The position numbers and the translations under genes are program-made. From Taiwanofungus camphoratus (lineage: Eukaryota; Basidiomycota; Agaricomycetes; Polyporales; Taiwanofungaceae): DNA of 64,000 nt. Below the pieces are notes generated by a model. The model made no database searches. It worked only from the letters and a program-made list of their open reading frames with translations, and was not told the origin of the DNA. This document shows, piece by piece, positions 5,013-32,910 of the stretch. Numbering within the stretch: position 1 is the stretch's first letter; every line of letters begins with the position of its first letter. The stretch lies in assembly GCA_003999685.1 (NCBI GenBank), contig CP021222.1:1922001-1986000 (forward strand). The letters are read 5' to 3'.

Positions 5013-6808
5013 TGATGAGTCCCGTAGCCTCCTGGGCCCCGAATCGCGATTTCAGGAGCTTTCTGATCCCCCAACCGACCACTCTAAGACTCTCCTACAG
5101 CCTACGACAGGAGGGATAGGTTCCTATAATATTCCTAACGCCCCCTCTCCTTCCTAAACCCTCCTAACACCCTACGAAGTCTTGCGAAGTCACACGAGGT
5201 GCTACGAGATTTCGAATGCTAGACGCGAAGTCCCTAACTCCTGCTAAGTCCACTATCGGACACTGCCGGCCCTCCCATACTGTTCCATTGGATCTAGGTC
5301 CTATCTACAACGTCACTCATCCCGGGCTTAGCTAAGAAGTCTTAGCTAAGTCTCTCCTAGCTCTTGTGATTGCAGCTACCTCCGATAGGCTCCGAAACGG
5401 TCCGAAGTTCCGGAAATTGGACTTAGGAAGCCTTGTGCACCCCCATGGGTCTTGATCCTATGCCATAAGGTCATCCTAGGGCGTACCCATATGACCCTCC
5501 ACCCAGTTAGGACACCTCCTGCCCCGATTAGGCCAAGTCCCGCTGCTAAGAACTTTGTGCGCTCTTAGCCCGCTAAGATAGGTGATCACGGCGCATGGCT
5601 GCTCTCGGATAGTCATCCCGCCCTCGTGAATGAAGTTGGTCACCTTTCTACCGTTCGTAGTTCCCCTGTTTCAGTTCCTAATTAGTTCCTATCCCCCTCG
5701 TGTTCACTTCGGAGTCCATGCGTTTTAGGACACATTTCGGACTCGTAAGGATCACTTCGCGCAAGATTAGTTCACCTCACGCTCCCCTATTTAGTCAGAG
5801 GTAGTTTACTATGTACGCCAGAGACCCCTCAGTGTACGCTTCTCTCTTTGGAATACCAGTTCCTCTGTAGCTCCGATCTCAGGAAAGCGCCGCGAGTACA
5901 ACCTTAGGAACGGTCCCAAGGTCCCTAAGTCTCCACCCCAGCTCCGTTTCAGTACCTTTGAACTACGTCTACGCTCGCGATATATCTACGAACTACGTCT
6001 ACGCTCGCGATATATCTACGAACTACGTCTACGCTTCCCGAACTACGCACTACGATCTACGAAGTCGCCGTGACTTCGTGCCCTTCAGCACCTCTTATAG
6101 CACCTATCCGGTGGGCCTCCGCCTTAGTTATACCCTTAGGCTCACGTTGCGTCATCCCTACGTCCTACGAATAACCCTACAACTCCCCCATAGCCTTCAT
6201 TACAGGCTATAGTACATCTCTCTACGCCCTCGAACTCTCCGACCCACACCTCGAAGTCATCAGACACTTCAGAGCTTCCAGCAACCTCGTTCCCTCATTC
6301 CTATTCCAAGTATTAGCTCTCCGAACCATCCGACCTCTCCTACAAGTCTCCTACGCTAGCCAAACCTCGCCCACCTCGCTCTAACAAACCTCTAAGCCTT
6401 ACACCCTTTAGCTAACTCTAGCTAAAAGGACTTCGCAGCAGTCTCGTACCCTCTGCCGCTTAGTAGAAATTATAGTCCATTGGCTTATTGCCCCCTAACT
6501 CTATACAGCCTACGAAGTCAGCTCGCGCGATTTAGCTAAAACTTCGAAGGACTTCGCAGAATCTCGAAGGACTTCGCGTACTTCGGAGGGCCTCGCAAGG
6601 CCTTAGGGATAGTATAACACTTAGGAACAAGATCCTGTTGTGCAGGACCCTTGACCCCTTACTCCCCTACTTACAAAAACAAGACATACAGGTTTCCCGG
6701 TATCATACAGGTTGTAGCTCCTACCCTCACACCCTCACAGTTATCACACTACCCCACAGCCACGTTGCGGAGCACTCCCTAGGTACCAGGGTCCCCTAGG
6801 TCGTATCA
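5013..6808. repeat. 1.7-kb LTR-like repeat, left copy
   Basis: The element runs TGATGAG...CGTATCA, so its tips form a TGAT/ATCA inverted pair. A core of 1708 bp (5101-6808) recurs at exactly the same length at 16236-17943, and every stretch I compared was identical. It has no convincing ORF. It is dense in short motifs such as tacgaagtc and ttagctaa and contains a 30-bp tandem repeat (5960-6035). Ends, size and lack of coding capacity suggest a solo LTR or another non-autonomous LTR-type unit. It is flanked by ccgg (5009-5012) on one side and acgg on the other, so there is no exact target duplication. Alternative: the true left limit is 5101 and the preceding 90 bp is LINE sequence. Confidence 0.6.
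5960..6035. repeat. 30-bp tandem repeat, about 2.5 units
   Basis: Two full units and one partial unit starting gaactacgtctacgctcgcg sit head to tail inside the 1.7-kb repeat. The same array is present in the right copy at about 17095-17170. The open frame it produces (NYVYARDIST repeats) is a by-product of the repeat and is not claimed as a gene. Confidence 0.8.
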
Positions 6809-7377: not shown

Positions 7378-7854
7378 TGAAACAATTTCTATTTCTTATC
7401 ATTACCACGGTCAGTGCTTACACATGGACTATTACCATACGGGCCCTGGATCGGCCCCACTTACGCATAGGACTCTGACTCATATCCGGGCCGCTTACCA
7501 CATTCCTCATCACTCATACGTATTGCTAATACGCCCGGATCGTACCACTATCTATTTACTCAGAGTCGTACCACATTTCGGACCTCCTGCCCTAGAGTAG
7601 TTCTTGGTCCGTGCTCACGATACGTACTTGTATATATAGCATGTATCTTAGCTTAGGTCGGACCTTAAGTCTGATCTTGTTACCACTATATTCGTGTCTT
7701 GTATCCTCTCGCTCACATCTGAGTGATACTCGCTCGAGTCTACGGACTTCACGACACTCGGTCTATATCGACCATAAGACCTCGCCACCTTCTATCGTGG
7801 TCAGGCCCTCACGTGTGAGGCAACGTCTAGGATCCAAGATACCAATTTGTATCA
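7378..7854 (+). repeat. Gypsy 5' LTR
   Basis: 477 bp, starting tgaaacaatttc and ending tttgtatca. It contains a TATA-like box at about 7631-7637. The start of the self-priming complement at 7666, about 30-35 bp downstream, is where the transcript (R region) would be expected to begin. It is nearly identical to the 3' LTR at 15091-15567. Confidence 0.92.
7631..7637 (+). promoter_or_regulatory. Candidate TATA box of the Gypsy LTR promoter
   Basis: tatatata-type sequence about 30-35 bp upstream of 7666. That spacing is normal for RNA polymerase II initiation and agrees with the 5' RNA end implied by the self-priming site. Confidence 0.55.
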
Positions 7855-7855
7855 A

Positions 7856-7868
7856 AAGATCAGACTTA
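7856..7868 (+). promoter_or_regulatory. Self-priming primer-binding site of the Gypsy element
   Basis: aagatcagactta begins two bases after the LTR. It is the exact reverse complement of taagtctgatctt at 7666-7678 inside the LTR, just where the transcript should start. No tRNA 3'-end complement (beginning TGG) is seen at the usual place. In Tf1 and sushi elements the folded 5' end of the mRNA is cleaved and primes minus-strand synthesis, and this layout fits that mechanism. Confidence 0.8.
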
Positions 7869-8304
7869 CGCTAAGCCGCCCCTAGTACCATCTAGCGGGC
7901 ATACATCCATTACCACGTCTTACCTCAGGACCGTTGATCCTGACTATTGGGGGTTACCTGCACGAGGAGAGGAACCACTTCTCTACGACATCGAACAACG
8001 AGTGTTCGTAGACGCGAACCGGAACCCGATCTATCCGAGATCACCGCTTACCTGGATTAGAACAACATCCAGACGACCAATCCAACAAGCACAGGCCAAC
8101 CTCGCTACTTACTTCCAGCGAAACCCTGTCGACGAAGGAAAAGACATCGCAATCTTATTCACGGGAGGGTCACAGGAATCCACACCTATCGAACCCATCC
8201 CCGAAGGCACGTTCACCGCCTCGACTTCTCGAACGCCCACACCCACTCCATCCTCATCCTCATCCACTCCTATAATATCCGCACCCACACCTCGACGAGT
8301 CACC

Positions 8305-9333
8305 ATGGCGACGATTGGGAACATGACACAACAGCAGCTGGAGGCACTCATCGCTCGCCTCCAGACCCAGCAGCAAGGGGCTCGAGCCCTCAAGCTCGAC
8401 ATTCCTGCGCCTGACCCCTTCACCGGGCAAGGGGAAGATCTGGATCGATTTATCCAGCGGGTGGAACATTACTTCACCGCCACGAACAACACCAACCTCA
8501 GCGACGACGCAAAGATCGCATTTACGGTCGCTCTCATGAAGGGAGGGCAAGACGCACGCATATGGCGTAACACGTTCTACGAACGAGCAGCGGGGGGTCA
8601 AGCACCTTACAGGACATGGGACCTGTTCAAGGGATCTCTCAAGTTGGCATTTCCCGAACACGAGGGAGTGCAGCGAGCACATCAGGTGCTCATGGAATTA
8701 CCAGCCAAGCAGCTGAACAAGAAAACGAGGGCCACTACCAAGATGTATGTGGAGAGATTCCGACTTCTGGCCGAAAAGGCGAAGTTGAAGGATGCGACCA
8801 TCGATGCGAATGGACAACGCACCGAGAACGACTACCCTACCCTCAGGGCGATATTCATCAAGGGGCTGGACCGACAGATCTATGCCACCTTAGCCGGAAG
8901 GGCCACATCCGAGAGGCCAGACACCATGGACAAATGGTACAGGGACGTCCTATCCTTGGACGCAATTTACAGGGGGATCGACCAGATCTCCAACGTCACC
9001 ACCTCAGTCGACTATGGGGAACCCATGGACGTCGACGCAGCCGTCACACGCCCTGCACGTACCTCTCCATCCACCCCTAATAGGAAGCAGTGGACGGATG
9101 GTTGCTCCTTGAACGAAAGCGAAAGGAAATACCACCGCAACAACAACCTATGCTTCTATTGCCATAATAGGGGACATTCGGCACGAGACTGTCGCAAGAA
9201 GGCGACAGCAATAACGAAGACCACACCCAAGGCGCAGGACTCGCGCCCCACGGACTATCGCTCTTACATCAAGAGCTTGTCGGCCGACGAAAAGAGAGAG
9301 GTCATGGAAGAATTGGCCACGGAGGATTTTTAA
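8305..9333 (+). CDS. gag: Gypsy gag (capsid and nucleocapsid)
   Basis: Gag-like protein with a retrotransposon capsid region (ALKLDIPAPDPFTGQGEDL through the YFTATNN segment) and one CCHC zinc knuckle, CFYCHNRGHSARDC, near the C-terminus. 8305 is the first in-frame ATG and has a good context (accATGg). The same frame stays open upstream through a Ser/Thr/Pro-rich stretch almost to the LTR, so a longer product from a non-ATG or processed start cannot be excluded. A fossil-type element gene, with no host role implied. Confidence 0.8.
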   Translation: MATIGNMTQQQLEALIARLQTQQQGARALKLDIPAPDPFTGQGEDLDRFIQRVEHYFTATNNTNLSDDAKIAFTVALMKGGQDARIWRNTFYERAAGGQAPYRTWDLFKGSLKLAFPEHEGVQRAHQVLMELPAKQLNKKTRATTKMYVERFRLLAEKAKLKDATIDANGQRTENDYPTLRAIFIKGLDRQIYATLAGRATSERPDTMDKWYRDVLSLDAIYRGIDQISNVTTSVDYGEPMDVDAAVTRPARTSPSTPNRKQWTDGCSLNESERKYHRNNNLCFYCHNRGHSARDCRKKATAITKTTPKAQDSRPTDYRSYIKSLSADEKREVMEELATEDF

Positions 9334-9416
9334 AGGGGCAGGGTGAGTCGACGCAACCACTGCCCATTTCAGTTTCACTGTCCCGTGTTGTACTAGTAGT
9401 CCGGAATGAAAGAGCT

Positions 9417-12400
9417 TTGCATATTCCGATTACTGTGGGACGAAAAGACGTCGAAGCACGCACCTTCATTGATAGTGGCGCCTTCGGGATATTCATACAT
9501 CCCAGATTTGTCAAAGAGCACAATATCCGCACTGAGGCTCTACCGCGCCCAATGCCCGTGTTCAATGTGGACGGAACGGCTAACAAACAAGCTGTCATCA
9601 CAAAAAGGGCCCTTCTTTCGTACAAAATAGGAGGGGAACCCCGATTCGTTAAAGCCTATGTGGCCAGCATAGGAAAGGAAGATATTATCTTCGGGCATAC
9701 CTGGCTCAAACTGGAAAACCCAGACATCGACTGGAAGACAGGAAGGGTGGAGCTTAAACACCGCATGACCCTGAAGGAATCTAGGGAATGAAAGAAAAAC
9801 CTACTAGAAACCAGGGCCAAACGACTGGAAATCAAAAGGTTGACAGCGGAATCTATTTCTAGGGAAATCATAAAGGCTCGCCAACCTTCGGTCGAAGAAA
9901 TTGAGGACGAAGGAGATGGGGACGTCATGGACACCATGTCCCCAATCTTACCAACGGAGGAGACCCCTCGTCAAACAACGCGCCGAGACTCGGTAGTCTC
10001 AACCCCGGAAGAAAACTCGGTAAACGGTATCACACTCGAACAAGCCATGGAAATGATCGACGACGATGAGCTGGTCATAGCATTCATCGAAGGAGACGAC
10101 CGGATCACAACGTACGGACGGGATTCACACCCCGCGTACCGAGACAACCCGCTAAAGGAGAAGGAGTATCCTTTCGATGGAACGTACCGTCGCCTCGAAA
10201 ACGGTCTCATTTGGCAGGTCAAACACGACATCAGTCGGCTCACCACGTCTACGGAACTCGCTATTAAGGAACACGCTAAGAAAGAAGAGAAACCGGTCAC
10301 GGAACTCGTCCCTGAGTACCTCCACGATCTCCTTCCGGTATTCGACAAACAAGCGGCAGCCCGACTTCCTAAGCACACGGAACACGACCACGAGATCAAC
10401 CTGAAGGAAGACTTCAAGGAGTTCAAGCAGTCCACCTACTCTCTCAACCGAGAGGAACGAGCAGAGCTGGATAAATTCCTGAAAGAGAACCTCAAAAAGG
10501 GGTATATTCGTCCATCAAAATCACCATTGGCCAGCCCGTTCTTCTTCGTAGAAAAGAAAGATGGGGGATATCGACCTTGCCAGGATTATCGGGAACTCAA
10601 CGAGGGAACTATCAAAGATCGTTATCCACTCCCTCTCATATCGGAACTCCTGGAACGGTTAAACAAGGCGACCATCTTCACCAAGATGGATCTCAGACAG
10701 GGGTACAACAATATACGGATCCAAGAGGGTGACGAATGGAAGGCGGCCTTCGGCGTTCCAGCAGCTGGAGAAGGACCTCCCTCATTCTACGAACCCCTGG
10801 TAATGTTCTTTGGAATGTGCAATTCACCGGCGACGTTCCAACGGATGATGAACACGGTCTTCGCAGACATGCTCAAGGAAGGATGGTTGGCAATCTATAT
10901 GGACGACATCCTTATCTACTCGATGGACCTCGAGGAGCATAAGAAGCGAACACGGCGAGTTATCGAACGACTTCGGGATAACGACCTATATCTCAAACCG
11001 GAGAAATGCAAATTCGACGTGCAAGAAGTTGAATTCCTAGGCATGATCATCAGACCCGGACAACTCGCCATGGACCCGGTCAAGGTAGCCGGTATCAAGG
11101 ATTGGCCGATACCTAAGAACCTCAGGGAGGTTGGGTCATTCATCGGGTTTGGAAACTTCTACCGTCGGTTCATACATCGGTTCTCGCACCTGGCCCAACC
11201 ACTGGTTTCGCTCACGCGAAAAGACGTCAAATGGCATTGGGACGACGAACAACAGGAAGCTTTCGAGGCACTGAAGAAGGCCTTCCTGAAACAACCAGTT
11301 CTATTGATGCCCGACTCGGAGAAACCGTTTGCGTTGGAAACGGATGCATCGAAGTTTGCCACGGGCGCCGTCCTAAGACAAAAAGACGACAATGGGGATT
11401 GGCACCCATGCGGTTATATCTCCCAAAGCATGACGCCAGCGGAACGAAATTACGATGTCTACGATCGAGAACTCATGGCCGTCATGAGGGGACTCAACGA
11501 ATGGAGTCACCTTCTCATCGGAAGCCCATACCCGGTCACGATCTACAGCGATCATAAAAATCTAACATACTGGAAAACGGCACGGAATCTAAATCGGAGA
11601 CAAGCGCGATGGGCCCTCCGCCTATCCGAATTCGATTACGAGCTAGTTCACGTCCCGGGCACGCAAATGGTACAAAGCGATGCACTCTCCCGACGCCCCG
11701 ACCACAACGACGGTTCATCAGACAACCAGGGAATAACTGTCCTGCCAGACAAGGTATGGGCAGCGGCAATCGATACAAGCCTAAAGACGTCAATCGCGAA
11801 GGCAGGTGTAAACGACCCGGTATATATGGAAGGGCTGCATAATGCACAAAACGGCTTAAACGATCACTGGACAGTCCAGGATGGGGAACTCCTTTATGAT
11901 AACCGGGTGTATATTCCTCTGAACAAGAACTTACGACAGAAGACGGTCTCAAACTATCATGACCTACCCCACGCTGGCCACCCTGGAATCGCCAAAACCC
12001 TAAGCTCCCTGAGAAGGGACTACTGGTGGCCTGGAATGGCCGACTTCGTCGCCCGGTATGTTCATGGCTGTGGCATATGTCAACAAATGAAGGTCAACAC
12101 CCACCCGGACCGCCCCGCCCTCATCCCGATCCAAGCCGCCGCTCACGCCACACCATTCAGCACCTTTTGTTGCGATTTCATCACGGACTTACCTCTTTCC
12201 AACGGCTACGATTCGATTTTGGTCGTAGTGGACCACGACCTTAGTAAGGGGGTAATTTTCATTCCATGCAACAAAACCATCGACGCACAAGGAACGGCGG
12301 AACTTCTTTACAACGAGGTCTACAAATGGTTTGGACTCCCAGACAAGATAATCAGCGATCGCGGACCACAATTCGCGTCAAAGGTATTCCAAGAACTCTG

Positions 12401-13214
12401 CCACATGACAGGAGTACAGTCCGCCATGAGCACGGCTTTCCATCCTCAGACGGACGGAGAAACGGAACGGGTCAATCAGGAGCTCGAGGTGTACCTTCGA
12501 TGTTTCACAAGCAACAATCCGGACAGGTGGTCTTCCTTACTCGGCGCAGCACAATTCGCGCACAACTCCAGGGAACACTCGACGATCAAGGCGTCGCCGT
12601 TTAAAGTCATGATGGGCTTCGAACCACGAGGAATCCCCGTCGTACACAAGGGATCGGACACACCCGGCACAGCTTATCGCCTGAAGAACCTTCAGAAGAT
12701 AAGGGAACAAGCACACGCGGCAATGGAGCTAGCCCAGGCGATATTGGCAAAACGGATCAAACCACGAGGGAAAGGTTTTCGCAAAGGACAACAGGTTTGG
12801 CTCGACTCCCGGAACTTAAAGCTGCCATACCCGTCCAGGAAGTTGGCACCCAAGAGAGAGGGACCCTTCAAAATTGCTGAGGTCCTAGGCCCAGTATCAT
12901 ATAAGCTGAAACTCCCGAAGACATGGCGAGTACATCCCGTTTTCCACGCCACCCTTCTATCGCCTTACACGGAGACGGAGATCCATGGCCAGAACTACAC
13001 GAGACCACCGCCGGAACTTATCGAAGGTGAAGATAACTACGAAGTCGAAGTCATCATCGGACATCGGGAGAACCGACGGACAAAACGCCGCGAGTATAGG
13101 GTCAGGTGGAAAGGATACTCTTCGGCCGATGACTCATGGGAACCGGAAGCGAATTTAGCCGGTACTGCGGAGGAGCTCCTAGGAGCGTATAAGGGGAAAA
13201 AGAACCTGGGCTAA
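9417..13214 (+). CDS. pol: Gypsy pol: protease, RT, RNase H, integrase, chromodomain
   Basis: Domains in order: aspartic protease (FIDSGAFG near 9460), reverse transcriptase (from about 10500, with YMDD near 10895), RNase H (ETDASKFATGAVL near 11335), integrase zinc module (HAGHPGIAKTL ... CGICQQMK, about 11970-12090), integrase core (CCDFITDLP, ISDRGPQFAS, DGETERVNQ, 12170-12480), a GPY/F-like region (KREGPFKIAEVLGPVSYKL, about 12855-12910), and a chromodomain (YRVRWKGYSSADDSWEPEAN, about 13040-13190). The region is nearly whole with about one break. Chromodomains in this group are known to guide integration to marked chromatin. Confidence 0.88.
12236..12256 (+). promoter_or_regulatory. Candidate central polypurine tract inside integrase
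   Basis: The 21-bp sequence containing ccttagtaagggggtaa is identical to the tract next to the 3' LTR (15071-15091). A second tract in pol occurs in Ty1 and in lentiviruses, where it primes extra plus-strand synthesis. Here it also encodes integrase residues, so function is inferred from exact identity alone. Confidence 0.5.
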
Positions 13215-13258
13215 GACCAGTTCACTCCCCTCAGACGAACTACCCCCACCAACGCAAC

Positions 13259-14668
13259 ATGCCTCGCCAGTCTAATACCTACGCCCAAGCCGCCGCTCGT
13301 GGCCGAGCCCGCACCTTCCTTGCCACTCGACGTGCTACCCGTACACCGCAGACAGCAACGTCTCCCACGGCTATACCATCCTCGTCGTCGGCATCCTCGG
13401 CATCCTCTGGTTACGGCCCACTCTTTGGGCTTCAAACTGCCGCCCAGTTCCGCAACCCCGTACCAGGGGACGGCGCCCTACCAAGACAAGCCGACGTCCT
13501 CTACTACCCGCGTTGCATCTACGACGTGGACCCGATCCTACTCGACGTCCTGACTCGACACTCGAGGGACATCGCACGGTTGCTTTGTTCTTTGCCGAAC
13601 ACGCGAAACAACCAGGATGAACAAGAGGCATACGGGGAATACATCGACGCCAGGCTACAATACTTAGGAGCGGTAGACGACGCAACGGAGCAGCTGGCCA
13701 TATGGAAGGACAAAATCCGGCAGTTAGACTTCAAGGTGGTCCGCACCCTACTAAGGATGGATGACATGTCCATGGCCCGCCACCTGCAAGACATGATCAC
13801 CCCACACCGACGAACCGACCACCACCGGTTCGTACGACGATCCCAGCCCGACATTGTCACACGTGGACCTACCCCGCCGCCTGAACCCGAAGACCCTCTG
13901 CAGGCTTTCATCGACACCCCAGCCGGACAACAGTCCATTGGAGTCGTCCCTAGCCGGATCGACTCCCTCCCGAATTACATGCGCCCCGGACCCAACTGGA
14001 GACCACGAGGACGCTGCCACGCCTGTGGCAGCATGATGCACTGGGTACGCGATTGCCCAGACTACACTTGTGCCAGATGCCATCGCACTGCTCCGGGACA
14101 TCTATCCAGAGAGTGCACGGTAGCACGCCGTGCCTCTGCCCCACCCATCCTGCCTGCCCCGGGAGAGGGACGTCGTCGCGAGATGGTCGACTCGATTCAC
14201 CGTCCCACACAAGCACCCATCCCCGTCATGTCCGCCACCAATCCGCCACGCGTCCTCCTGTCTAGAAGAGAGCAGCCCCTTCCCCCTACCCCATCCCGCT
14301 CTCGCAGCAATGGACCACTCGCCCCTCACACCAATGCAACAGCCGGTCCATCGCGGACCGATACACCTTACCCTCACACACGCACACCCGGGCCATCACT
14401 CAACCATTTGTCCGGACCCGGAATGCCGCCCCACCAACACCTTGCCAAACCCGGGGCAAGTACTGGTCCTTTCACTCGTGGCCCCGATGGCCGATTCACT
14501 CCTCCCCCAGCTATCCCACCTCCCCCGCCCAGTTATCACGTCCCCCCTGTCGTTTCTCCACCACCTGTTTACCGCCGCGGGAATTACGACCCGCCCACGA
14601 ACTCCTATGTGAACGACAACGACTGGGACGACTACGAGTTCGAACTCTACGGTGATGGCGAGCAATAA
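13259..14668 (+). CDS. Extra Gypsy ORF downstream of pol, with two zinc knuckles and Pro-rich tail
   Basis: A 469-residue frame starting 45 bp after the pol stop, on the same strand and inside the LTRs. It has a Ser/Ala/Thr-rich N-terminus, a charged helical middle, and then two Cys/His knuckles (CHACGSMMHWVRDC and CARCHRTAPGHLSREC). A long Pro/Ser-rich tail ends in an acidic segment (YGDGEQ). It resembles a second nucleocapsid-like protein rather than an envelope, since I see no signal peptide or membrane segment. It is not part of the canonical gag-pol plan, and the function is unknown. It could be a gag duplicate or a captured host gene. Confidence 0.75.
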   Translation: MPRQSNTYAQAAARGRARTFLATRRATRTPQTATSPTAIPSSSSASSASSGYGPLFGLQTAAQFRNPVPGDGALPRQADVLYYPRCIYDVDPILLDVLTRHSRDIARLLCSLPNTRNNQDEQEAYGEYIDARLQYLGAVDDATEQLAIWKDKIRQLDFKVVRTLLRMDDMSMARHLQDMITPHRRTDHHRFVRRSQPDIVTRGPTPPPEPEDPLQAFIDTPAGQQSIGVVPSRIDSLPNYMRPGPNWRPRGRCHACGSMMHWVRDCPDYTCARCHRTAPGHLSRECTVARRASAPPILPAPGEGRRREMVDSIHRPTQAPIPVMSATNPPRVLLSRREQPLPPTPSRSRSNGPLAPHTNATAGPSRTDTPYPHTRTPGPSLNHLSGPGMPPHQHLAKPGASTGPFTRGPDGRFTPPPAIPPPPPSYHVPPVVSPPPVYRRGNYDPPTNSYVNDNDWDDYEFELYGDGEQ

Positions 14669-14853: not shown

Positions 14854-15014
14854 GGTACGAGATGAAACACTCTCAAGGTTCGAGGTGAAACATCCTCATG
14901 GTACGAGATGAAACACTCTCAAGGTTCGAGGTGAAACATCCTCATGGTACGAGATGAAACACTCTCAAGGTTCGAGGTGAAACATCCTCATGGTACGCGG
15001 TGAAACACCCGCAT
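14854..15014 (+). repeat. 23-bp tandem array, seven units
   Basis: Seven head-to-tail 23-bp units (ggtacgagatgaaacactct type alternating with ggttcgaggtgaaacatcct type), exactly 161 bp. Because two unit variants alternate, the array also reads as a 46-bp higher-order repeat. It lies between the extra ORF and the polypurine tract and is of unknown function. Confidence 0.9.
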
Positions 15015-15070
15015 GGCTGATGAACGTTTTTATTTAAACAAAAAAAAATCAAGTAGGGTCGTTCGGAGAT

Positions 15071-16202: not shown

Positions 16203-17943
16203 TGATGAGTCCCGTAGCCTCCTGGGCCCCGAATCCCTACGACAGGAGGGATAGGTTCCTATAATATTCCTAACGCCCCCTCTCCTTCCTAAACCCTCCT
16301 AACACCCTACGAAGTCTTGCGAAGTCACACGAGGTGCTACGAGATTTCGAATGCTAGACGCGAAGTCCCTAACTCCTGCTAAGTCCACTATCGGACACTG
16401 CCGGCCCTCCCATACTGTTCCATTGGATCTAGGTCCTATCTACAACGTCACTCATCCCGGGCTTAGCTAAGAAGTCTTAGCTAAGTCTCTCCTAGCTCTT
16501 GTGATTGCAGCTACCTCCGATAGGCTCCGAAACGGTCCGAAGTTCCGGAAATTGGACTTAGGAAGCCTTGTGCACCCCCATGGGTCTTGATCCTATGCCA
16601 TAAGGTCATCCTAGGGCGTACCCATATGACCCTCCACCCAGTTAGGACACCTCCTGCCCCGATTAGGCCAAGTCCCGCTGCTAAGAACTTTGTGCGCTCT
16701 TAGCCCGCTAAGATAGGTGATCACGGCGCATGGCTGCTCTCGGATAGTCATCCCGCCCTCGTGAATGAAGTTGGTCACCTTTCTACCGTTCGTAGTTCCC
16801 CTGTTTCAGTTCCTAATTAGTTCCTATCCCCCTCGTGTTCACTTCGGAGTCCATGCGTTTTAGGACACATTTCGGACTCGTAAGGATCACTTCGCGCAAG
16901 ATTAGTTCACCTCACGCTCCCCTATTTAGTCAGAGGTAGTTTACTATGTACGCCAGAGACCCCTCAGTGTACGCTTCTCTCTTTGGAATACCAGTTCCTC
17001 TGTAGCTCCGATCTCAGGAAAGCGCCGCGAGTACAACCTTAGGAACGGTCCCAAGGTCCCTAAGTCTCCACCCCAGCTCCGTTTCAGTACCTTTGAACTA
17101 CGTCTACGCTCGCGATATATCTACGAACTACGTCTACGCTCGCGATATATCTACGAACTACGTCTACGCTTCCCGAACTACGCACTACGATCTACGAAGT
17201 CGCCGTGACTTCGTGCCCTTCAGCACCTCTTATAGCACCTATCCGGTGGGCCTCCGCCTTAGTTATACCCTTAGGCTCACGTTGCGTCATCCCTACGTCC
17301 TACGAATAACCCTACAACTCCCCCATAGCCTTCATTACAGGCTATAGTACATCTCTCTACGCCCTCGAACTCTCCGACCCACACCTCGAAGTCATCAGAC
17401 ACTTCAGAGCTTCCAGCAACCTCGTTCCCTCATTCCTATTCCAAGTATTAGCTCTCCGAACCATCCGACCTCTCCTACAAGTCTCCTACGCTAGCCAAAC
17501 CTCGCCCACCTCGCTCTAACAAACCTCTAAGCCTTACACCCTTTAGCTAACTCTAGCTAAAAGGACTTCGCAGCAGTCTCGTACCCTCTGCCGCTTAGTA
17601 GAAATTATAGTCCATTGGCTTATTGCCCCCTAACTCTATACAGCCTACGAAGTCAGCTCGCGCGATTTAGCTAAAACTTCGAAGGACTTCGCAGAATCTC
17701 GAAGGACTTCGCGTACTTCGGAGGGCCTCGCAAGGCCTTAGGGATAGTATAACACTTAGGAACAAGATCCTGTTGTGCAGGACCCTTGACCCCTTACTCC
17801 CCTACTTACAAAAACAAGACATACAGGTTTCCCGGTATCATACAGGTTGTAGCTCCTACCCTCACACCCTCACAGTTATCACACTACCCCACAGCCACGT
17901 TGCGGAGCACTCCCTAGGTACCAGGGTCCCCTAGGTCGTATCA
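16203..17943. repeat. 1.7-kb LTR-like repeat, right copy
   Basis: Second copy of the repeat at 5013-6808, in the same orientation. The 1708-bp core (16236-17943) is equal in length and appears identical; one short length difference separates the copies overall. Tips are again TGAT/ATCA. This copy is flanked on both sides by ccgg (16199-16202 and 17944-17947), a plausible 4-bp target duplication. Excising it leaves an uninterrupted LINE frame. That supports an integrated unit with the limits given here. Confidence 0.65.
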
Positions 17944-29204: not shown

Positions 29205-30053
29205 ATGGCAGCGAGAACAGCTAAAATCGAGCGCAAAACAAATGAGACGCAGATTGAAGTGGCCATTAACCTAGATTGCCAACCGGGATCGGGAAACAAG
29301 CAAGAAATTTCCATCTCTACTGGCATCGGTTTCCTCGATCATGTGTGTCTCAGCTCGCGCATGTCTGTCGGTGTCTGATGCTGTTCTCCACTCCTCCGTC
29401 TTGTCAATGACCAGATGTACCATGCATTAGCAAAGCACTCTGGAATGTCACTCGTTATGAAGTGCCAGGGCGACCTCTGGATAGATGATCATCACACAGC
29501 AGATAAGTATCGTCTCTGGCCAAATTTGCTGGGCAGCGCGTGCAATTGATTGACGGCACGGTACTTCACAGGATAGCGCAATAGCCTTGGGCACCGCGTT
29601 CAAACAAGCATTGGGAGAAGTCCGAGGTATTCGTAGATATGGAACCGGCTTCGCGCCGCTTGATGAGGTGTGCAGCGCATTATCACCGGCTCCCAGCGAT
29701 TCTCATCAAATCTGTTAGGCCCTCTCCCGCGCAATCATTGACATTTGTTCGAGACCATACTGCGTGACCGACCTCGGACTGAAGCGGGAGAAGATTGGGG
29801 ATCTCTCTACCGAAATGTTTCCCCATATATTTTATTCCTTCTCCATCGCCGCTGGGGTGACCTTGCACGTTGATGTTTTGCGAGGAGAAAATGACCATCA
29901 CCGGTGGGTGGGGAGTTTTTATTGAAGATCTGCAACGGATACTGATACCAGTCAAGAGCGGAGTCGGCGTTCAAGGCACTGGCACTCGCTATTCGTCAGG
30001 CAATCGAGAGGACAGGGGGTGATGATGTACCGAGTACTAAAGGCGTGCTATGA
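29205..30053 (+). CDS. HIS3: Imidazoleglycerol-phosphate dehydratase
   Basis: Catalyses dehydration of imidazole glycerol phosphate in histidine biosynthesis; a Mn-dependent oligomeric cytosolic enzyme. Start [15 protein letters not shown] at 29205, end DVPSTKGVL, the usual fungal C-terminus. Other landmarks are [40 protein letters not shown] and [14 protein letters not shown]. Introns: 29343-29414, 29504-29570, 29668-29718 and 29904-29956. The second has no GT donor in phase. With AT-AC ends (ataagt ... cttcac) the exons join as HHTAEDSAIALG, restoring the invariant metal-binding Glu, and the total becomes exactly 201 codons plus stop. Without that intron the gene would look broken. Confidence 0.92.
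29504..29570 (+). other. Putative AT-AC intron of HIS3
   Basis: 67-nt intron with 5' ataagt and 3' cttcac, and a possible branch sequence ttgac about 17 nt before the end. The 5' end is the standard gtaagt with G to A, as in U2-type (class II) AT-AC introns, not the U12 consensus atatcc. AT-AG and the nearby GT choices give a frame error or an early stop. Confidence 0.7.
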
Positions 30054-30349: not shown

Positions 30350-32910
30350 CTATCTATCACCGCCTTCACACAAGGTCTCAAGGAAGACCTTCAAGTCGTC
30401 TTTGTTGATCTCGAGAACGCTGGTGTCGAACGAGCCATGGCGCGTGCGCGCATTGCACCGCTCCTTCGCATCTAAGAACGCGAGACCGAATTCACTAACA
30501 TCAGTGTAAACATATCAGTTCAAAGGCAGGCCACAGTGCATCCAGAAGCAGAAATGTACGTACTTCTTCCGTACTTCTCCGAAATCCAGTGCAGCCATGA
30601 CACCCACTACGATGTACGTACCCGTCTTTTCGTTCAAACAGGCGACCACTAGCGGTAGACTCTTGCGCTTGCTCCGTGAGTAGGCAGGATTCGTGCCTTG
30701 GATTCGGTCTCGTAGTGCCTCGACGAGCCAGAGTACCAATCGCGACAAGACGCCGGGATGCGCGAAGAGTGCGAGATCAGGGCCTTGCGTAAGGACAACG
30801 ACGCGATGCCCGCGAAGGGTACGAATGTCGTGTTTATCAATAATGGATGAGCCTTGACGGATAATAGCACGGTGGACAGACATGGCAAGCGAGAGCGCTT
30901 CTCGTAGTCGTACAATGCTAGGGATGGAGTGAAACCATTAGTATCTGCAATTTACGGTGCATATTCGATGGGGAATATAGCTCACTCGTTAAGCGCATCA
31001 AATGCGGTCCAAAAGTTCTTCACCCACCATTGCAATCCGGCCCCCTCGCCATCGGCATCCTCCTTTCCTTCCATGTCGGCTGCTACACTCTGTAGCTTCG
31101 CGATACTGACCACAGCCCCTGGAGGGATATTCTCCCGCTCGTCATCTCTCCTCCGCCCCTCTTTACCTCCTATCCAGACCCGCCCGCCGCCAAACCACTC
31201 CCCGCCATTCCGTGCACCTTCGATCTCGACCTCCATTCGAATACCACCTGCTACATCTAACAGGGCTGAGACAGCTTCTACTGCGTCGCACGCAGAGAGA
31301 GGCTGGGAACGGTAGCCGTAGCACCGCGTGAATGATGGATATGAGAGCTCGACGAGACCATATTCTGGTGCTATCTGATCTAGCTTATGCCGCAAGGACA
31401 ACTTGAGGTCTTTTGCCATATGTGGGTATGACTGTTGTGTTTCAGGTATTGAGAAACTGAAAGAATCATGATGATCAACTGATCGGACGAGGGAAAATAA
31501 CAACAGAAGAGGCAGCAGCGAGACGTACCCCATCTTCGCCAGCAACCCGGTCAATCGTTTCCGGCCACGCTCCTTCCATATTCCAAGCTTGCTGGCGACA
31601 TAGGCAGAATGGTACATGGCGTCGTACAAATTCCAGTGTCTAAACATCATAAATCGCAGGTCGTCGGCTGCATATACAGATGTATCATCAGGGCTCTGTG
31701 ATTTGAAGTCACAGTCATTCGCAGCAGATGCCGGAGGTGGTGGGTTGAGACGAGCGACCTCATCGTAGTATATTGAATGGTATTTGTCGTAATCTTCGCG
31801 TGAGATACGGGAGGTTGTATACTGGAATGTGAGACCCAGAATGGCCAGCCTACGACGGGGTAATATCGGTGAACTGAATGTAACGAGGATTATAGGAGAT
31901 GAAAGAAGTACCAAAGAAGGTCATTATCTACGCGCTCGAGTACCGTCGCGAGAATGTAGATTGTTCCCGATGCACTTTGGCCATGCCATGTACCTGACAT
32001 GTAATGTTTTTCCAACCGCGTAGAATGTCGAGCTCGCTCATCTCTTGACATCCGATGCGGCCGCTGGGCGAAATGCTTGAGCTATATCACACGTACAATA
32101 ATGTGAACTTGTGAGTACCTCAACTCTTCGACGCTTTCCAGTAGTCCTATCTCCATCTCCGAATGATTTTCGCTTGCCAGAAGAGCTACTGCCCTCATAG
32201 TCCTCATCGTCCTCACCGTCGTGCGCTTCTTCCTCCTCCGAGTTCGAATCTTCCTCATCCGAGTCGGGGTCTGGTTCATACTGAATTCAAGTGTCAAAAA
32301 GTTATATTGTAAACAATAACAAGTCAGTCAAACGAATAGGCTTACAGTCAGAGCCTCCCAGGCCTTTCGCTCTTCCTGTAAGTCCTCGGCGCCTCCATCA
32401 TCCCATATCACTATCCTCTCGCCGTTCCCCCCACCACCAAAAACACTAGACAAATTCTGGGGCCTTGAGGAATCAATGACATGTACGGTGAGTTGGGTAC
32501 TAAAGTCGCCAAACCACTCCGAGGAAGGAAGATCAAGGATAGCACCCATGTTCAGCAGAATCAAGGTGTGCAACTGCAAAGCAATCACAATCAGCGTCTA
32601 GGCCTACCTCCTAATTGCATAGTCAGAAGCATAAACGTACATCTGAATACGTTGCTAGCTCGTCTCGCATGCGCTCTAACTCGGCATGCCCTGAGACTGG
32701 GATGATACGATGCATAACATCGTCTTGCTTAAAGACGTCTGCAAGCATCCGAGCAGCACAGATGGCGTCAACATCGGGTGCAACTAGCATGATGATGGAT
32801 GAAGCAGAGGTTGTTGGTGACCGACGATGGGCGGCGAGGACCTTGGCGTAAGCTTCTGCATAGGATGGACGCGATGCTGAGGCAAGGTGAGGAGGTGGTA
32901 GGTAAACCAT
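30350..32910 (-). CDS. CDC45: DNA replication initiation factor CDC45
   Basis: Core of the CMG replicative helicase (Cdc45-MCM-GINS), with a RecJ/DHH-like fold that has lost nuclease activity. Start MVYLPPPHLAS at 32910. The conserved N-terminus reads AEAYAKVLAAHRRSPTTSAS, then APDVDAICAARMLADVFKQD and HRIIPVSGHAEL. A central acidic region (DSDEEDSNSEEEE) with a basic cluster is followed by ISREDYDKYHSIYYDEVA and RFMMFRHWNLYDAMYHSAYV. The C-terminal half has CNEK-type segments and ends LEINKDDLKVFLETLCEGG (stop 30350-30352). Several short introns, roughly 680 residues. It appears intact. Its promoter lies in the 259-bp gap to MSS51. Confidence 0.9.

Follow-up and report, generated by a model that had tools for sequence, protein, structure and literature searches.

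A probable U2-type AT-AC intron in the metal-ligand codon of HIS3 in Taiwanofungus camphoratus, apparently widespread in the Agaricomycetes

Introduction

U2-type AT-AC introns (AT-AC II introns) are usually regarded as rare accidents. In those studied elsewhere, the A at +1 and the final C form a matched pair. The introns of the minor spliceosome, among which AT and AC termini are common, carry instead the U12 donor consensus ATATCCTT (RTATCCTT) and a branch site resembling TTCCTTAAC.

RNA-supported AT-AC introns have been documented in two species of Polyporales, Ganoderma lingzhi, with 13 among ~92,000 splice sites (Table 1 of that study), one of them Sanger-confirmed (PMC11590231), and Coriolopsis trogii, in which AT-AC accounts for 0.0235% of sites (PMC13395996), so that the U2-type AT-AC kind is itself already known. 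As these reports describe them, some of the introns were validated by PCR or Sanger sequencing, and gene models are damaged where they are missed; the passages drawn on here name a polymerase zinc-finger gene, mention no HIS3 and do not discuss conservation between species (PMC11590231, PMC13395996).

The intron analyzed here, in HIS3 of Taiwanofungus camphoratus, likewise lies in a nuclear gene of the Polyporales, and it resembles U2-type AT-AC introns in its A at +1, the otherwise U2-like donor, the terminal AC and the absence of the U12 donor and branch consensus. Unlike the known cases, which are scattered, it is apparently class-wide and splits the codon of a metal ligand. With U12-type introns it shares the AT and AC termini and matches neither their donor nor their branch consensus. 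Searches of an open-access library turned up no report of an AT-AC intron in HIS3, and an AT-AC intron that is apparently class-wide at a catalytic codon, with many database records corrupted there, appears to be new as far as we have seen. The AT-AC intron of the Ganoderma polymerase gene prompted an inspection of two DNA polymerase genes of T. camphoratus, at their zf-C4pol domains, for a second case; the introns within these domains read GT-AG.

Results

Structure and product of HIS3

A complete HIS3 gene, encoding imidazoleglycerol-phosphate dehydratase (IGPD), occupies positions 29205-30053 of the forward strand of the window, the 64-kb stretch of T. camphoratus DNA that was analyzed. Its five exons amount to 606 nt including the stop, an exact multiple of three as the first-pass annotation had noted, and encode 201 aa:

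29205-29342, + strand, HIS3 exon 1 (46 codons, ending in GFLDH)
29343-29414, + strand, intron 1 (GT-AG, 72 nt, phase 0)
29415-29502, + strand, HIS3 exon 2 (ends in DDHHTA and base 1 of the Glu codon)
29503-29569, + strand, intron 2 (read as AT-AC, 67 nt, phase 1, splitting the codon for the Mn-binding Glu in HHTAED)
29570-29667, + strand, HIS3 exon 3
29668-29718, + strand, intron 3 (GT-AG, 51 nt, phase 0)
29719-29903, + strand, HIS3 exon 4
29904-29956, + strand, intron 4 (GT-AG, 53 nt, phase 2)
29957-30053, + strand, HIS3 exon 5 (stop TGA at 30051-30053)

The predicted product contains a full-length IGPD domain (Pfam PF00475, 201.9 bits against a cut-off of 27) with its HHxxE metal ligands, and shows an end-to-end match to 1rhy, the Cryptococcus enzyme, that covers residues 1 to 201. 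Five HIS3 matches emerged when the 33.2 Mb genome was searched with protein, all at a single locus. The best protein matches listed are 91-92% identical over 100% of the length and Polyporales-like, and none of them is near 100%. No Rfam match was found within the 64-kb window. On the opposite strand beside HIS3, at 30982-31920, lies a gene piece matching CDC45 (Pfam PF02724, 254.5 bits).

The junction at intron 2

The signals in and around intron 2 are as follows:

29503-29508, + strand, donor hexamer ATAAGT (6/6 to ATAAGT; a U2-type donor with A replacing G at +1)
29550-29554, + strand, branch-site-like TTGAC (YTRAY; its A lies 16 nt before the intron end; pattern match only)
29568-29569, + strand, 3' splice site AC (CTTCAC/AG)
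29507-29576, + strand, alternative GT-AG intron overlapping intron 2 (in frame; reads HHTADNAIALG, 200 aa, Glu lost)

A further branch-like match, TTGAT, lies 20 nt before the end of the intron. The first-pass annotation gave the correct length of 67 nt and the correct ATAAGT and CTTCAC ends, and placed the intron one base too far downstream: 29504-29570 starts with TA and ends with CA, and the correct interval is 29503-29569. It had also held that no GT-AG pair joins the exons in frame. This proved wrong when we enumerated all junctions with a donor in 29420-29569, an acceptor before 29667 and a length above 30 nt, irrespective of dinucleotides: 4,710 pairs are in frame and free of stops, including 14 of the class GT-AG, 32 of GC-AG and 28 of AT-AC, and the nearest GT-AG pair, 29507-29576, loses the Mn-binding Glu. 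A junction of that type is implied by annotated models such as that of Sparassis latifolia (P0020).

Only two of the 4,710 junctions yield HHTAEDSAIALG with the metal-binding Glu and a 201-aa family protein, namely 29503-29569 and its one-base TA-CA slide, which produces an identical mRNA; every other enumerated junction fails to produce the family protein and was rejected. The restoration of the motif claimed from the first inspection is thereby confirmed. The 29503-29569 junction has AT and AC as its termini, AAGT occupies positions +3 to +6 of the donor, and the Glu codon is split as G/AG. Retention of intron 2 leads to an early stop. The Glu concerned corresponds to E77 of Arabidopsis IGPD2, described as an Mn ligand beside H73 and H74 (PMC4509728), and to Glu145 of the Medicago enzyme MtHISN5 (PMC10978614).

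HIS3 models of related fungi

Three protein searches, with the best 120 of 8,000 scored matches taken from each, gave 207 different HIS3 proteins, which were sorted by source and by class, the class being assigned from species names by recall with 11 names looked up. The counts exclude three proteins that read Glu: P0096 and P0182, each of which has an annotated as well as an unannotated source, and P0178, whose source is ena.

Among the matches listed, the Glu site is wrong in 74 of 119 annotated proteins from Agaricomycetes (Asp in 73, Gln in 1, with Glu in the other 45), a pooled count that leans towards misread models because the query of the third search, P0185, is itself misread; the first list by itself, obtained with a Glu-reading query, has 53 wrong models among the 90 annotated proteins in the best 120 of 8,000 matches. 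Among relatives, then, gene finders do miscall the gene, as had been predicted from the sequence. The same 119 proteins show the expected junction motif at the three GT-AG introns in 118, 118 and 115 cases, that is, 1, 1 and 4 wrong models among the listed matches as against the 74 at intron 2. Glu is present in 45/45 listed annotated proteins of Tremellomycetes, Dacrymycetes, Pucciniomycotina and Ustilaginomycotina, so that outside the Agaricomycetes no misread model (0/45) occurs among these matches.

A second group of listed matches consists of 40 proteins whose sole source is unannotated jgi/lgn contigs of ~1 to 9.5 kb; all 40 read Glu and keep the standard distance to the motif that follows. 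These contigs are probably for the most part spliced transcripts, as which we take them because they are short and their frames are uninterrupted where the window has introns. Within the first list of matches, Glu is found in 29/29 contig proteins versus 37/90 annotated ones (Fisher P 1.6e-9).

The errors themselves follow a pattern. In the listed Asp models with HHTA or HHSA, the residue after Asp is Asn (18), Asp (17), Lys (16), Glu (12), Met (5), Thr (3) or Ile (2), and the pair of Asp and its neighbour fits G/AT followed by AAGT, GAGT, ATGT or AC, of which the last would be needed for the three Thr cases. Judged from these amino acids, the donors of the relatives would be variants of the usual GTAAGT, GTGAGT and GTATGT in which A replaces the initial G, and the misread residues match what is expected if the intron is read as exon or the GT at +5 is used as donor. 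The 74 wrong models listed have 20 different spacings to the next motif, where the Glu models share one (the spacing pattern left 1 of 48 annotated Glu proteins unmeasured). Some of the 45 Glu-reading fungi among the 119 may have a GT-AG intron at the site, or none.

Two species illustrate the conflict directly. The annotated Suillus cothurnatus protein P0025 reads HHTADDAIALG and the contig protein P0017 reads HHTAEDSAIALG, while outside the site 186 of 187 residues are identical. Lentinula raphanica has three published readings, ADDA (P0067), ADDSA (P0038) and AEDSA (P0041). In P0038 the motif is HHTADDSAIALG, with correct spacing and Asp in place of Glu, the outcome expected of a GA-AG junction; a length check would not detect this error.

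Distribution and age of the intron

The comparison of orthologues that the first-pass annotation had in mind was carried through at the protein level. It shows misreading of the same residue, among the listed matches, in eight orders of Agaricomycetes (Polyporales, Agaricales, Boletales, Russulales, Gloeophyllales, Hymenochaetales, Phallales and Cantharellales), with the AT of the relatives being deduced from their proteins. This suggests that the same AT-AC intron is common to mushroom-forming fungi at the same place, its AC end being known from the window alone. The AT donor, deduced from misread proteins, would be homologous across these fungi and date from the early Agaricomycetes; a single origin near the base of the class is the simplest reading, and repeated origins of the AT-AC intron in HIS3 are possible. 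When a coding pattern that ends at the AT donor was searched for, no fungal match appeared in genome_contigs and no match in viral_contigs; the sole genome_contigs match, in a deltaproteobacterial MAG, was taken as chance.

Discussion

Competing explanations

In T. camphoratus, HIS3 very probably works and has as its second intron a U2-type AT-AC intron (ATAAGT...CTTCAC) that is excised by the ordinary major spliceosome. The initial proposal, that HIS3 is functional and relies on a rare non-canonical intron, remains the best reading, given the exact restoration of the protein and the misreading of the same residue in relatives. Gene finders restricted to GT-AG and GC-AG introns would either read into the intron or take the GT inside the donor hexamer. 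If the +1 A and the terminal C of intron 2 form a matched pair, single changes towards GT-AG would be disfavoured, which may explain the persistence of the intron.

One challenge comes from the GT-AG pair 29507-29576, which is in frame and free of stops and would, if it were the true junction, mean that these fungi have lost or replaced the Glu (HHTADNAIALG); annotated proteins such as P0020, P0024, P0185 and P0205 read ADN followed by A[IL]ALG, as a junction of this type would give. Such splicing removes a residue described as an Mn ligand (PMC4509728), whereas the listed contig proteins all keep the Glu, and the models of close relatives contradict one another, as the three readings in L. 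raphanica show; we regard this as decidedly unlikely. A related and also unlikely proposal is that both junctions are used, as two overlapping splice registers in the donor hexamer, with AT at +1 leading to active enzyme, and GT at +5 together with an AG in the Asp-Ser codons leading to an in-frame subunit without the Mn ligand. The register shift would then tune histidine synthesis, dead subunits joining the enzyme oligomer, and this could be why the AT-AC intron has survived from the early Agaricomycetes onwards. In principle the present sequence could stem from an indel in the assembly, or from a mutation of recent date, that disrupted a normal GT-AG intron in the T. camphoratus genome alone, for example a small deletion at the GT donor that left ATAAGT. 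The same Asp misreading recurs in 73 of the listed annotated proteins, which come from numerous independently sequenced fungi, and because so many separate genomes are misread at this residue in the way predicted for an AT donor, chance or assembly error is very unlikely, to the point that we give it almost no weight. Hardly any credence attaches either to a HIS3 pseudogene: retained intron 2 does introduce an early stop, but the five exons are open apart from the intron 2 junction, and the high, full-length identity of the product to its best matches and the single genomic locus also speak against decay.

The spliceosome involved

AT-AC termini alone would be compatible with a U12-type intron removed by the minor spliceosome, and minor-spliceosome RNA genes have been reported in one basidiomycete, Cutaneotrichosporon oleaginosum (PMC7072748). 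The signals of intron 2 do not resemble that class: the donor, ATAAGT, agrees with the U12 donor consensus at 4/8 positions, and the best match to the U12 branch consensus reaches 6/9 without the TTAAC core, so that the combination of donor and branch that marks U12-type introns is absent. The genome search for minor-spliceosome RNAs that had been put forward for choosing between the spliceosomes returned no match to U11, U12, U4atac or U6atac versus five to U6, the control genomes of the tool being ones that do not test those four families. Surveys report no convincing minor introns in Basidiomycota (PMC10639083, PMC2846911). Because of the U2-like donor and branch-like site and these surveys, removal of intron 2 by the major spliceosome appears by far likelier, and a U12-type identity highly improbable.

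Implications

The persistence of such an intron from Cantharellales to Agaricales, inside the codon of an essential metal ligand, would provide a natural test of first- and last-base covariation and of intron trapping. With the catalytic Glu lacking or misplaced in 74 of the 119 Agaricomycete models among the listed matches, structural, marker-gene and inhibitor work that relies on these records begins from the wrong active site. A scan for conserved residues that are misread alike across species could reveal more introns of this kind without RNA data.

Other features of the window

Elsewhere in the window, two tandem arrays at 5960-6035 and 17095-17170, ~11 kb apart, have the same 30-base unit and copy number and flank three long open frames of 500, 1140 and 491 aa (7831-14668); arrays and frames together look like a long-terminal-repeat retrotransposon. 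Directly past the open frames, at 14854-15016, lies a further tandem array with a 23/46-base unit, and the interval 8001-12000, which overlaps the frames, has an AT skew of 0.239, far higher than in the rest of the window.
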